Positions 33,066-37,061 of a DNA stretch of 37,061 nucleotides are shown here, one piece after another (the first letter of the stretch is position 1; each line of letters opens with the position of its first letter). A program made the translations under genes and the position numbers. The stretch covers positions 1 to 37,061 of the forward strand of contig VGLJ01000047.1 in NCBI GenBank assembly GCA_016866775.1. Reading direction: 5' to 3'. The notes under the pieces were generated by a model. It did not search any database and had not been told where the DNA came from. It was given only the letters and a program-made list of their open reading frames with translations. The DNA is from Candidatus Rokuibacteriota bacterium (GTDB lineage: Bacteria > Methylomirabilota > Methylomirabilia > Rokubacteriales > CSP1-6).

Positions 33066-33762
33066 GGCGACGGGTCCCTCTGGGCCGGAACAGAAAGAGC
33101 AGGACGACGCCCGCGACGAAGCCTCCGATGTGCGCGAACCAGGCCACACCCCCCGTGTCGACGCTCTGGCGCGCGCTGATCACTCCGTTGAGGACCTGGA
33201 CGACGATCCAGAACCCCAGGACGATGACCGCCGGGATGTGAACGAATCGAATGAAGAATCCGAAGGTGATGAGGGTCAGGACGCTCGCGTGGGGGAAGAG
33301 GAAGAGGTAGGCCCCGAGCACGCCCGAGATGGCGCCGCTGGCGCCGACCATGGGAATCCGCGACTCCGGGTTGATGGCGGTCTGGGCGACGGCCGCCCCC
33401 ACACCGGCGAGCAGGTAGAGCGCGAGGAAACGGAAGTGGCCCAGCGTGTCCTCGACGTTGTCGCCGAAGATCCACAGGTAGAGCATGTTGCCGGCGATGT
33501 GGAAGAGCCCGCCGTGCAGGAACATCGACGTGAAGACGGTGACGATGGGCGCCGGGAACTCGTCGATGGGACAGGCGCCCGTGAGCCGGCACGGGACCGC
33601 GCCGAACTCCATGACGAACGCCGCGGCCGCCTCGCGAGTCGGCCCCGCCGGCGCCATCTGAAGCGACAGCTGATAGAGAAACGCCGCCACGTTGGCGGCG
33701 ATCAGCATCACGGTGAAGAGCGGAAAGCTACGGCTGGGGACGTCGTCCTTCAGCGGCAGCAT
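33061..33762 (-). CDS. Rhomboid-family intramembrane serine protease
   Basis: Cleaves transmembrane substrates inside the bilayer. The 233 residues open with a short cytoplasmic SRSFPLFTVMLIAANV, then six or so membrane helices. The catalytic pair is S142 in MVGASGAISGVLG and H211 in WFAHIGGFVAG, with the oxyanion-region HGGLFHIAGNMLYLWIFGDNVE (residues 83-104). The substrate is unknown. ATG 33762 shares a base with the stop of the upstream M16 gene (TGATG), so it belongs to the same envelope-proteolysis operon. Confidence 0.9.
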   Translation of the reverse strand: MLPLKDDVPSRSFPLFTVMLIAANVAAFLYQLSLQMAPAGPTREAAAAFVMEFGAVPCRLTGACPIDEFPAPIVTVFTSMFLHGGLFHIAGNMLYLWIFGDNVEDTLGHFRFLALYLLAGVGAAVAQTAINPESRIPMVGASGAISGVLGAYLFLFPHASVLTLITFGFFIRFVHIPAVIVLGFWIVVQVLNGVISARQSVDTGGVAWFAHIGGFVAGVVLLFLFRPRGTRRL

Positions 33763-35051
33763 CAGCGCGGCCGCAGCACGATGATCGTCGGGCGCTCGAG
33801 GTACCGGCGCGCCGCGGCCTGCACGTCGGCCGCGGTGACGGTGCCGAGCTGGCGCGCGTAGCGGTCGGGGAAGTCGTAGCCGGCCCCGATCAGCTCGAAG
33901 AACGCGAGGTACCACGCCTGGCGCGCGTTCGTCCGCCGGTCCATCGCCAGGGTGCCCTGGAGGTACGCCTTGGCCCGCGCGACCTCCTCGGCGTTCGGCG
34001 GCTCCCGTCGAATGCGCTCGATCTCGCGCAGCATGCCGGCCTCGGCGGGCTCGACGCTCGCGGGCGCGGTGCCCATGTAGCCGACGATGAGCGCCGGGCC
34101 GGCGCGGGTCGCGTAGATGGCGCCGAGCGAATACGCGAGCCCGAGCTTGTCGCGCAGCTCCACGAAGAACCGTCCGGACATGCCGCCGCCCAGCACCGCG
34201 CCGAGCACCTTCACCGCCGCGTAATCGGGGTCGGCGACGCTGGGTCCGGCGAAGCCCACGAGGACCTGCGCCTGCTGCGCGGGCCGTTCGAGGACTCTTC
34301 GCTTTCCCGGCGGCGTCAGCGAGGGCGCGGGATCCGCGGCCGATCCGCCGCCGCCGGCCATGCCCCCGAACAGCTTGCCGGCCGCCGCGACGACACGCGC
34401 TGGCACCACCTGCCCGCCGACCGCGAGCACCATGCGCTGAGGCTGGAAGGTCGCCCGGTAGTGCGCGAGCAGATCGTCGCGCGAGATCTTCTCGACGCCG
34501 GCGCGCAGGCCGACCCCGGGCAACGCGTACGGGTGGCCCGCGTAGAGATCGCCGAGCAGCGCGTCGAGCGCGAACTGGAACGGCTGGTCGGCACGCGTCT
34601 GGATCTGGCTCAAGATCAGGCGACGTTCGGTCTGGATCGCGTCCGCGGGAAGGCTCGGCTGCAGCGCGACCTCGGCGACGAGACCGAGCATCGCCTCCCA
34701 GTGGCGGGCGAGCGCGGTGCCGCGGATCTCCGCGTACTCGACGTCCCCGGAGGCGTCGATGCTCCCACCGAGCTCTTCGGCGGCGATCGAGAGCTCGACG
34801 TGCGAGCGTCGCGTGGTGCCGCGCGCGATCACGCGGTGCAGGAAGTTGGTGATCCCCGCGTTCTCCGGCGTCTCGAAGCGCGCGCCCGCGCGCACGAGCA
34901 GGCTGATCGCGACGACACCGGCGGCGGGATTCTCGCGCACGAGCACGCGCAGCCCGTTCGGAAGCGTCGAGCGCGTGACGCGCGTCTCGTCGGCGGCGGC
35001 CGTGGTGGCGCCCGCGAGGACGATCAACGCCAGCGCGAGGGCGATCGTCAT
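33762..35051 (-). CDS. M16-family peptidase-like protein, non-catalytic subunit
   Basis: A 429-residue insulinase/MPP-type protein with an N-terminal signal peptide (ALALALIVLAGATTAAAD), so likely periplasmic. The fold motifs are present (TLPNGLRVLVREN; QTERRLILSQIQ), but the zinc motif HxxEH is replaced: the aligned residues are N69, H72 and R73 (GITNFLHRVIARGT). The Arg/Tyr pair used for substrate binding is retained in FVELRDKLGLAYSLGAIY. This matches the inactive partner of two-subunit M16B peptidases. It overlaps the active partner upstream by ATGA, which supports a heterodimer. Confidence 0.9.
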   Translation of the reverse strand: MTIALALALIVLAGATTAAADETRVTRSTLPNGLRVLVRENPAAGVVAISLLVRAGARFETPENAGITNFLHRVIARGTTRRSHVELSIAAEELGGSIDASGDVEYAEIRGTALARHWEAMLGLVAEVALQPSLPADAIQTERRLILSQIQTRADQPFQFALDALLGDLYAGHPYALPGVGLRAGVEKISRDDLLAHYRATFQPQRMVLAVGGQVVPARVVAAAGKLFGGMAGGGGSAADPAPSLTPPGKRRVLERPAQQAQVLVGFAGPSVADPDYAAVKVLGAVLGGGMSGRFFVELRDKLGLAYSLGAIYATRAGPALIVGYMGTAPASVEPAEAGMLREIERIRREPPNAEEVARAKAYLQGTLAMDRRTNARQAWYLAFFELIGAGYDFPDRYARQLGTVTAADVQAAARRYLERPTIIVLRPR

Positions 35052-36379
35052 CGGGCCGGCACGAGCGCGATCCGCACGTAGCGCGCGGGATCGAGGTACT
35101 TCTTCGCCGCCGCCTGGATCTGTGTCCGCGTCACCGTCCGCACGCGATCGAGATACGCGAGCTCGTCGCCCAGGCGCCAGACCGTCTCGGCGCGCCCGAG
35201 CGCCTGCGCACGCCCCTCTGCCGTCTCGGTCCCGAACTCGTGCTGCGCTTCGGCCGCGGTGATCGCGCGGCGATGCTCGGCTTCGGTGACGCCCTCGTCC
35301 CGCAGACGGCCGATCTCACGCAGGATCTCGGTCTCCACGCGCTCGAGGTTCGTCGCATCGGTCTGCGCGGTGACGGTCACCGCCCCCGCCGCTTCCAACG
35401 CCGAGTAGCCGCTGCTCACCGAGCTGACGAGGCCCAGCTCGTCGCGCAGACTCCGCGTGAGTCGCGACGTGCGCGTCTGGCCGAGGATCGTGACCAGGAG
35501 GTCGACGGCCGCAAGGTCGGCGTGATCGATCTTCGGCGCGTGCCAGCCGAGTCCGAGATACGCCTGCGCGCCCGGGCGCCGCAGGTCGATCTTTCGGGGA
35601 CGCAGCGGCGGTGGCACGGGCGCGGGCAACGGCGCCGTTCCACCGCGCGGCAACCGGCCGAACGTCCGGCGCGCGCGCTCCAGGACTTCCTCCGGCGTCA
35701 CGGGGCCGACGACGACGAGCGCGAACGCCTCGGGCGCGTAGAGCCGGCGATAGAACGCGAGCAGCGTGTCCCGCGTCAGTCCGCGCACGAGCTCGGGTGT
35801 TCCGATCACCGGACGGCCGTAGGGATGTCCCTCGAACAACGTTTCGAAGAGCCGACGCCCGAGGAAGCGCCGCGGGCTGTCCTCGGTCAGCCGCATCTCC
35901 TCGAGCACGACGCGCTTCTCGGCGTCCAGCACCGAGGTCTCGAGGCTCGCGTTGACGCTGATGTCTGCGAGGAGATCGATGGCCGCGGCCACGCGGGTCG
36001 CGGGCAGGACCATGTGGTAGTAGGTGTAGTCGAGCGACGTCCCCGCGTTCATGCGGCCGCCCACCCCTTCCACATCCCGATCGATGAAGCCGGTGGGGCG
36101 TGACGTCGTTCCCTTGAAGAGCATGTGTTCGAGATAATGCGCGAGGCCCAGTTCGTTGGCCGCTTCGTCGCGGCCGCCCGCGCGAACCCAGAGTTGAAGC
36201 GCCGCCACATCGCTCGCCCGATGCTCCTGGACGATCACACGCACTCCGTTCGGAAGTACGTGGCGCTGCGGCGGAGGCAGACCGGGCGCCGAAGCTTCGC
36301 GCGCCGGCGCCAGGGTGCACCCGGCGGTCACGACGAGAGTGACGACGAGGGCCGCCAGACGCGGTGTCACGGCGGGCAT
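35048..36379 (-). CDS. M16-family zinc peptidase, catalytic subunit (predicted lipoprotein)
   Basis: A 443-residue M16B metallopeptidase. ATG 36379 gives a lipoprotein signal peptide (LAALVVTLVVTAGC, lipobox VTAGC, Cys 21), so it is probably membrane-anchored. The zinc site is complete: H81-x-x-E84-H85 in LAHYLEHMLFKGT, with the distal Glu in EKRVVLEEMRLTEDSP. The C-terminal half has SRLTRSLRDELGLVSSVSSGY, where the Tyr of the usual R/Y pair is missing, complementing the downstream partner, which keeps it. A longer upstream reading (to 36628) is not supported. It heads the operon running to secA. Confidence 0.92.
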   Translation of the reverse strand: MPAVTPRLAALVVTLVVTAGCTLAPAREASAPGLPPPQRHVLPNGVRVIVQEHRASDVAALQLWVRAGGRDEAANELGLAHYLEHMLFKGTTSRPTGFIDRDVEGVGGRMNAGTSLDYTYYHMVLPATRVAAAIDLLADISVNASLETSVLDAEKRVVLEEMRLTEDSPRRFLGRRLFETLFEGHPYGRPVIGTPELVRGLTRDTLLAFYRRLYAPEAFALVVVGPVTPEEVLERARRTFGRLPRGGTAPLPAPVPPPLRPRKIDLRRPGAQAYLGLGWHAPKIDHADLAAVDLLVTILGQTRTSRLTRSLRDELGLVSSVSSGYSALEAAGAVTVTAQTDATNLERVETEILREIGRLRDEGVTEAEHRRAITAAEAQHEFGTETAEGRAQALGRAETVWRLGDELAYLDRVRTVTRTQIQAAAKKYLDPARYVRIALVPAR

Positions 36380-36532
36380 GGGATTGCCAGCGTACCACAC
36401 GGTCCGCCCCCTCCCCCGCCGGGCAGAATGCCGGTCCCCAACCCGCAAGACCGCCGGGCACCTCGCCACGTCCGGTGAGGCCCCCCACACGTAACACCCG
36501 AGAATCGTTGGCCAACAGGAGGGGGGCTTCCC

Positions 36533-36547
36533 TGGCACGAGGCTTGA
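36533..36547 (+). promoter_or_regulatory. Sigma-54-like -24/-12 promoter
   Basis: TGGCACGAGGCTTGA matches the sigma-54 consensus TGGCACG-N4-TTGC except for the last base (A for C). It would start transcription near 36559, giving a ~130-base leader to ATG 36688. A 10-bp palindrome lies about 17 bases upstream. One mismatch at the -12 C keeps confidence moderate. Confidence 0.4.
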
Positions 36548-36578
36548 GATATCCCCGCCTCGAGATGGAAGCACACGG

Positions 36579-36596
36579 TTCGATACGGGAATCGAA
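36579..36596 (+). other. Inverted repeat in the leader of the repeat-protein gene
   Basis: TTCGAT, loop ACGGGA, ATCGAA, directly followed by AAGGAGGG. In RNA this is a small hairpin next to a strong ribosome-binding-like sequence lacking a start codon at the usual distance. It could influence leader stability or ribosome loading. Confidence 0.35.
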
Positions 36597-36687
36597 AGGA
36601 GGGTGGAGCGCGAACACCGGGAGTTCACCCATCACACGATCGAGGACCGAGATAACCATCATTCAATCGAGGGGAAGGATAGAGGCG

Positions 36688-37061
36688 ATGAAAAAGTTCC
36701 TTGCAGTCGTGATGAGCGCGGCCATGGTTGCCGCGTTCAGCCCGCTCGCCGAGGCGCAGTCGAGCTGCCCTGCTGAAGTCGCTCAGGCGAAGGAGCTTCT
36801 GAGCAAGAAGTCCGGCCCTGCGGCTCCGCGCTCGCTCGCCGGTTCGCGCATGGATACGCAGGCCCCGCGTGGCCAGAACATCCAGGCCCCGCGTGGTCAG
36901 GAGACGCAGGCGCCGCGTGGTCAGGACGTGCAGGCTCCGCGTGGTCAGGACGTGCAGGCTCCGCGTGGTCAGGACACCCAGGCTCCGCGCGGTCAGAACA
37001 TCCAGGCTCCGCGTGGTCAGGACACCCAGGCTCCGCGCGGCCAGGACACCCAGACTCCGCG
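36688..37061 (+). CDS. Secreted octapeptide-repeat protein, partial (runs off window)
   Basis: I do not recognise a family. The frame starts at ATG 36688 with AGAGGCG just upstream. It encodes a signal peptide (KKFLAVVMSAAMVAAFSPLAEA, cleavage probably after AEA), a short mature segment with one Cys and a likely helix (SSCPAEVAQAKELLSKKSG), a linker (PAAPRSLAGSRMD), then the repeat [TVI]QAPRGQ[DNE]: eight full copies and a partial one before the window ends. The repeat balances Arg against Asp and is rich in Gln, Pro and Gly, so it is probably disordered. The codons GCT, CGT and GGT dominate the repeats whereas neighbouring genes prefer GCG, CGC and GGC, suggesting high expression or recent array growth. 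It is the only plus-strand gene here. Confidence 0.85.
   Translation, partial: MKKFLAVVMSAAMVAAFSPLAEAQSSCPAEVAQAKELLSKKSGPAAPRSLAGSRMDTQAPRGQNIQAPRGQETQAPRGQDVQAPRGQDVQAPRGQDTQAPRGQNIQAPRGQDTQAPRGQDTQTP
36856..37061 (+). repeat. 24-bp in-frame tandem repeat array
   Basis: Eight complete 24-bp units plus 14 bases of a ninth, each encoding [TVI]QAPRGQ[DNE]. The core CAGGCTCCGCGTGGTCAG is nearly invariant; variation is in third positions (GCC/GCG/GCT, CGT/CGC, GGC/GGT) and in the two codons at the unit junction (GACACC, GACGTG, AACATC, GAGACG). Units have no spacers, and the array continues beyond the window. Confidence 0.95.

Follow-up and report, generated by a model that had tools for sequence, protein, structure and literature searches.

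What does the 24-bp tandem repeat at the very end of this contig encode, and is its product a genuine protein? The window, i.e. the whole stretch analysed here (positions 1–37,061), is the entire contig C47 of a 5.13-Mb MAG in 159 contigs from the Rokubacteria, which are uncultured bacteria of soil and groundwater. Because the window is the whole contig, the assembly cuts the octapeptide-repeat gene, and only its 5′ part (36688..37061, + strand), recognized by sequence and open reading frame, is available before the frame runs off the end. Judged from sequence, the octapeptide proteins are a real, undescribed and lineage-specific secreted family, for which we infer a function in the cell envelope or matrix.

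The repeat gene at the contig end

The frame begins with the ATG at 36688, its translation starts MKKFLAVVMSAAMVAAFSPLAEAQSSCPAEVAQAKELLSKKSGPAAPRSLAGSRMDTQAPRGQN..., and it stays open up to the contig end at 37061. The first-pass annotation had read it as a signal peptide and a Cys-containing segment leading into at least eight octapeptide copies of perfect length, and this description is accurate. Specifically, the gene starts with a Sec signal peptide (MKKFLAVVMSAAMVAAFSPLAEA, 36688..36756, +), read from the sequence, which contains no lipobox and is probably cleaved before Q24; all relatives carry a signal peptide of the same type by the same reading. The CPAE segment that follows belongs to an N-terminal CPxEVxxAKxML helix with the first conserved cysteine, C27 (36766..36810, +), as assigned from invariant columns and the model of relative L004. 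An APRSLAGSR module (36823..36849, +), a second motif that recurs inside the arrays of relatives, lies ahead of the array of 24-bp units coding for QAPRGQ[DNE][TVI] (36859..37061, +). The array comprises eight full units, the first at 36859, without indels, and a ninth (QTP) that is cut by the contig end.

Tandem Repeats Finder places the repeat at 36852–37061 (period 24, 8.8 copies, 86% matches, 0% indels) with a score of 266, far above every other tandem repeat in the window. The QAPRGQ DNA pattern occurs 8 times in the window array and 2 times in the rest of the 5.1-Mb genome, both as single matches, and the reversed pattern, used as a control, occurs 0 times in the genome. The missing 3′ half was not recovered in the same MAG via the C-terminal motif, the repeat pattern or the downstream protease, whose match on contig C112 is a different paralogue.

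Distribution of the family

When 95 genomes of the phylum were searched with a profile, the octapeptide family was detected in 51 of the 57 genomes of its own bacterial family and in 0 of the 38 genomes outside it. Relatives from 50 other genomes carry the array. A protein search matched 35 of 60 relatives, almost all of them belonging to the same bacterial family, and showed at least two paralogues on different contigs in several genomes; all named matches among GTDB genomes are Candidatus Rokubacteria or Rokuibacteriota. No relatives were found among the plasmids and viral contigs searched. The gene is near-universal in one bacterial family, where paralogues are frequent, and was found nowhere else in the phylum, which makes it a candidate lineage hallmark.

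The first-pass annotation knew of no described family with this repeat, and our comparisons agree: no match in Pfam or NCBIfam passed a curated family threshold, and PHROGs matches involved no more than 4 of the 28 members, several being to tail fibre families.

A second family type, with short arrays often built of QEVQAPRG units, is present at loci L016, L026, L028, L048 and L074, where no protease was located downstream. In three of these loci the sigma-54 site is as close as about 77 nt to the start, and in L048 and L074 none was found.

Protein anatomy and predicted structure

Complete relatives show what the contig end removes from the window copy: 4 to 41 repeat motifs are followed by a conserved C-terminal helical hairpin with the consensus KAxxLVxEAEAACKAGDMxxAKxKAxAAxxxLK. 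We extracted 31 proteins, of which 30 are intact; L035 was excluded as its frame changes inside the array. Exactly two cysteines occur in the mature part of 30/30 intact members, one in the N-terminal CPxEV segment and the other in the C-terminal A-C-x-x-G segment. Across the same 30 proteins Trp and Tyr are absent, and His and Phe almost absent. In 28 relatives the C, P, E and A columns of the N end and the A/C/G/K/A columns of the C end are invariant, including C28, P29, E31, C136, G139 and K147 in L004 numbering. The hairpin and the two-cysteine rule, as well as the promoter, terminator and gene neighbourhood described below, go beyond the features of the first-pass annotation.

The AlphaFold model of L004 (156 aa) contains three confident helices, at residues 30–45, 120–137 and 141–155, with pLDDT 84–92 in the helix blocks (about 86 for helix 30–45) and about 40 in the repeat region. 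The ends are therefore predicted to be ordered and the repeat middle disordered, in line with the disordered repeats suggested earlier for a protein whose secretion is read from its signal peptide. The pTM is only 0.40, and the packing of the two ends is not defined by the model. Repeat spacing is 8 residues in 277 cases and 9 in 111 cases, rising to 13/14 at inserted SLAGAR modules; such spacing speaks against a fold of strict periodicity. Comparison with the PDB gave a best E of 0.002, to Atg38 over the hairpin, and Foldseek with the L004 model gave a best E of 0.99, returning generic helical hairpins without significance.

The composition bears on whether the protein could be a surface adhesin whose regularly spaced Arg residues bind a specific polymer or surface, such as a polysaccharide, a nucleic acid or a mineral. 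The mature proteins have more basic than acidic residues (22 K+R versus 15 D+E in L004, for example) and Arg occurs in nearly every unit, but each unit is near neutral, pairing R with D or E, the repeats offer no His or Cys for metal, and neither an anchor nor a known binding domain is present; we consider such an adhesin quite unlikely.

Selection on the repeat peptide and codon use

The 'tandem identity' proposed earlier does not hold at the DNA level: the eight window units comprise seven different DNA sequences that diverge synonymously. Their per-site differences at codon positions 1/2/3 are 0.107/0.071/0.281, compared with 0.022/0.044/0.383 for the units of L014 and 0/0/0.39–0.48 for those of L016 and L048. 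Most arrays combine many distinct DNA units with few peptides, as in L014, where 22 units have 18 DNA forms and encode 3 peptides. Since the units differ mainly at the third codon position, the peptide is kept by purifying selection. Array length varies between relatives over the range given above, and may vary between strains as the first-pass annotation expected. Slippage as the main process is not supported, given a peptide under such selection; it may add to length change but does not explain the array.

These data also settle whether the array could be an assembly artefact or a non-coding minisatellite. Its place at a contig end and the frame change inside the array of L035 (L035:2732-3385, either an assembly error or a truly broken copy) could be taken that way, but many independent MAGs have full arrays with proper ends in the interior of long contigs, and purifying selection acts on the peptide; together these refute this explanation and leave it next to no probability. 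The early stop or frameshift without homologous repeats that the first-pass annotation had named as evidence against the protein does not apply either, as relatives have arrays, many of them with a proper end.

Codon use in the gene is unlike that of its neighbours, as had been noticed before. CGT makes up 60% of its Arg codons, versus 10% in the remaining genes of the window and 7% in those of the ribosomal-protein cluster; the corresponding values are 70%, 9% and 7% for GGT, and 38%, 4% and 3% for GCT. The same three codons are often over-used in the octapeptide genes of relatives. High expression of the ribosomal kind is not supported by this bias, because the ribosomal genes of this genome do not share it; avoidance of very GC-rich hairpins is a possible alternative.

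Promoter, leader and terminator

Upstream of the gene lies a sigma-54 type −24/−12 promoter (TGGCACGAGGCTTGAGA, 36533..36549, +), which agrees with TGGCAC-N5-TTGC at 9/10 positions; at −12 the window copy reads TTGAG where the consensus is TTGCN, and may be weaker for this reason. Within 200 bases upstream, the element scores at least 8/10 in 34 of 36 family genes, 12 of them perfect, and it is positioned 75–181 nt before the start. By comparison, 5.9% of random 200-bp stretches reach at least 8/10 and 0.64% at least 9, and about 6% of Markov shuffles reach at least 8/10. The conserved −24 GG and −12 GC at a fixed mutual distance, the membership feature of sigma-54 promoters, are present in those 34 genes, and RpoN is found in the same genome at 204 bits. 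Part of the relatives additionally carry an IHF-like element (YAANNNNTTGATW) about 41 bases before the −24 box, scoring at least 8/9 in 10 of 34 versus 1.7% of shuffles and degenerate in the others; the window copy shows none upstream of its −24 box. Homologues of enhancer-binding proteins are many in the genome, none of them above the TIGR02915 cut-off, and no regulator was assignable.

The promoter is followed by a long 5′ leader (36550..36687, +), similar in length in most relatives, which contains a purine-rich SD-like stretch (AAAGGAGGG, 36595–36603, +) and ends in a probable ribosome-binding site (GGGGAAGGA, +), identified by sequence directly before the ATG at 36688. The SD-like element scores at least 7/9 in 19 of 31 relatives versus about 20% of shuffles, and is possibly a ribosome standby site or leader element. 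The sequence AAAGGAGGT is perfect in L012, L044 and L051, and lies mostly 74–107 nt before the start codon. An Rfam scan of the leader gave no family above its gathering score; a riboswitch was rejected, the glycine match being sub-threshold at 19 of 32 bits.

At the other end of the gene, a GC-rich hairpin with a T-rich tail comes right after the stop in 17/17 intact syntenic relatives with a located downstream protease, and a TATA-like box (GGTATAAGAT in many) lies ahead of the next gene in those relatives. With its own enhancer-dependent promoter and, in relatives, a strong intrinsic terminator after the stop, the gene makes up a transcription unit by itself. We rejected joint transcription with the downstream protease as the main mode, given the strong terminator between the two and the TATA-like box of the next gene.

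Gene neighbourhood

On the other strand, the gene adjoins a pair of M16 (insulinase-type) peptidases. The divergent first one (35048..36379, −; Peptidase_M16 3e-30, M16_C 2e-38, computed on the frame 35048–36628) has a lipoprotein-like start, MPAVTPRLAALVVTLVVTAGC..., whereas the longest frame would begin at 36628 and span the sigma-54 site. The second (33762..35051, −) was assigned by family match, and TlyA, NAD kinase, a RecN/SMC-type protein and SecA come after the pair. The M16 neighbour is conserved in about 30 loci.

Downstream, about 20 loci of relatives encode a secreted HtrA-type trypsin-like protease that continues into a hydrophobic segment and then a rhodanese domain. A TGA interrupts this frame in 17 distinct loci (18 rows, two from one contig; including L033:8706-10202 and L079:10384-11904), in the context YC[TS]-TGA-PDE[AVLM]TSA, where the rhodanese active-site loop reads C-T-(TGA)-P-D-E, and L051 has Glu at the TGA place (YCTEPDEATSA). 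Read through as Sec, the rhodanese domain matches NF041203 (rhodanese_LYCAU) at 75–76 bits, below the cut-off of 115. A tRNA-Sec is encoded in the genome under study (G000:C43:34974-35067, 70 bits). The downstream gene is probably a selenoprotein fusion in which the in-frame UGA is read as selenocysteine; predicted selenoproteins already include CxU-type Sec rhodaneses and a trypsin-like protease (PMC13188914, PMC9312934). For the window copy, the corresponding ortholog is located past the end of the contig. The C112 paralogue in the same genome (G000:C112:5235-6635, L098) is without the TGA (YDTTPGEMTS) and has an extra C-terminal part that by eye resembles a cyclic-nucleotide-binding domain.

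Two further explanations involve this neighbourhood. First, the octapeptide protein could serve in envelope stress, as a disordered chaperone or shield in the periplasm that is induced through sigma-54 beside quality-control proteases, like Psp or the acid-shock protein Asr. Consistent with this are the sigma-54 promoter, with the IHF-like element in part of the relatives, the adjoining HtrA-like protease-rhodanese and M16 peptidases, a weak formal match to Asr (15.6 bits), and the precedent of E. coli PspE, a periplasmic rhodanese (PMC2593051). The Asr score is, however, far under its cut-off of 50, a terminator separates the neighbouring protease from the octapeptide gene, and no Psp protein was recognized nearby. 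We consider a stress role rather unlikely.

Second, the protein could be a modular precursor that the adjoining peptidases cut after the Arg of each unit, giving many short peptides for signalling, antimicrobial action or storage. Such processing would fit the one conserved Arg per unit, the trypsin/HtrA-type protease gene after and the M16 pair before the gene in many syntenic loci, and a weak likeness to the thiovarsolin precursor with its APR core (NF033878, 15.3 bits in a relative, cut-off 35). Yet HtrA-type proteases are not known to be Arg-specific, the protease gene sits behind the terminator, the residues that follow Arg vary, as does the 8/9 spacing, no modifying gene was recognized nearby, and a disposable precursor needs no conserved folded ends with a two-cysteine rule. 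We give the precursor a low probability.

Proposed function

On the basis of the family, its anatomy, the two-cysteine rule, the selection on the peptide and the conservation of promoter and terminator, all established at the sequence level, we propose that the protein is an inducible, exported, disordered polymer of the cell envelope or matrix, a reading to which we assign a probability of roughly 0.45. The gene would be switched on from its own sigma-54 promoter under a particular condition, with transcription stopping at its own terminator. The product, predicted to be exported by its signal peptide, would consist of a short N-terminal one-Cys helix, the repeat chain and a C-terminal hairpin of two helices that carries the other Cys. 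The repeat chain, made of QAPRGQDV and variants nine residues long, in which Q, P, G, R and D abound and aromatics are absent, would be long and hydrated, making the protein a soluble and flexible polymer. Its ends might clamp via the two cysteines into a closed loop or form links between molecules, and in the periplasm or at the cell surface the polymer would then act as spacer, filler or part of the matrix.

Export beyond the periplasm, the disulfide, abundance and the matrix function are inferred. The matrix, adhesive or surface-coat role offered in the first-pass annotation is plausible. Speaking against the polymer proposal, domain scans of the protein and its neighbours recognized no anchor, adhesive domain or adjacent exopolysaccharide gene. 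A condensate-forming (UCST) polymer was also considered, and is weakened by the missing aromatics: in model polypeptides, phase behaviour at physiological pH is absent when zwitterionic repeats lack aromatics (PMC7794388), which makes a soluble spacer or bristle likelier than a condensate.

A bolder extension, which we regard as a long shot, is a new class of bacterial structural biopolymer gated by redox: a sigma-54-switched disordered chain of tunable length with folded one-Cys caps, in which redox would choose between a closed loop, an open chain and a mesh cross-linked in the envelope, the redox state perhaps being set together with the neighbouring selenocysteine rhodanese-protease.

If the protein is an inducible envelope polymer, it would represent a new sigma-54-controlled, exosortase-free class of exported bacterial low-complexity proteins, and would provide a new repeat for protein materials. 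With its two cysteines, folded caps and selected repeat, the strict anatomy lends itself to direct testing by means of synthetic genes in laboratory E. coli.

Comparison with known systems

The closest functional precedent comes from PEP-CTERM proteins, for example PepA of Aquincola tertiaricarbonis, an RpoN-dependent secreted protein with the promoter TGGCAC...CTGCTT that keeps exopolysaccharide cell-bound in flocs (PMC9850573). The octapeptide family shares with them a signal peptide, export and an own sigma-54 promoter, but has octapeptide repeats and two conserved cysteines instead. The C-terminus of relatives (EAEAACKAGDM...AAxxxLK; the window copy is without it) contains neither a PEP-CTERM tail nor a hydrophobic TM stretch, and no match to exosortase (EpsH, TIGR02602) was found in the genome under study, which is 97.5% complete. 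We therefore rejected the protein as a PEP-CTERM/exosortase substrate, a sigma-54 promoter alone not making it a member, and since this genome is without exosortase the precedent serves as an analogy only.

Asr (NF033636) is also a small, exported, repetitive and basic protein, and matches as weakly as stated above; the octapeptide family differs from it in its repeat, its C-terminal hairpin and its sigma-54 promoter. The Psp (phage-shock) regulon has in common the sigma-54 promoter and the rhodanese/protease theme nearby, but the genes here form separate transcription units, with no Psp protein recognized among the neighbours. Thiovarsolin-type RiPP precursors share the repeated APR motif, at the sub-threshold score given above, whereas the octapeptide proteins have a Sec signal peptide and folded ends; no YcaO/TfuA was recognized among the part of the conserved neighbours that was scanned. 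Finally, resilin-like and other zwitterionic Pro/Gly-rich disordered polypeptides (PMC7794388) resemble the repeat in their P-X-G motif, balanced Arg/Asp and disorder, from which the octapeptide family is set apart as bacterial, without aromatics, and with defined ends that carry one cysteine each.
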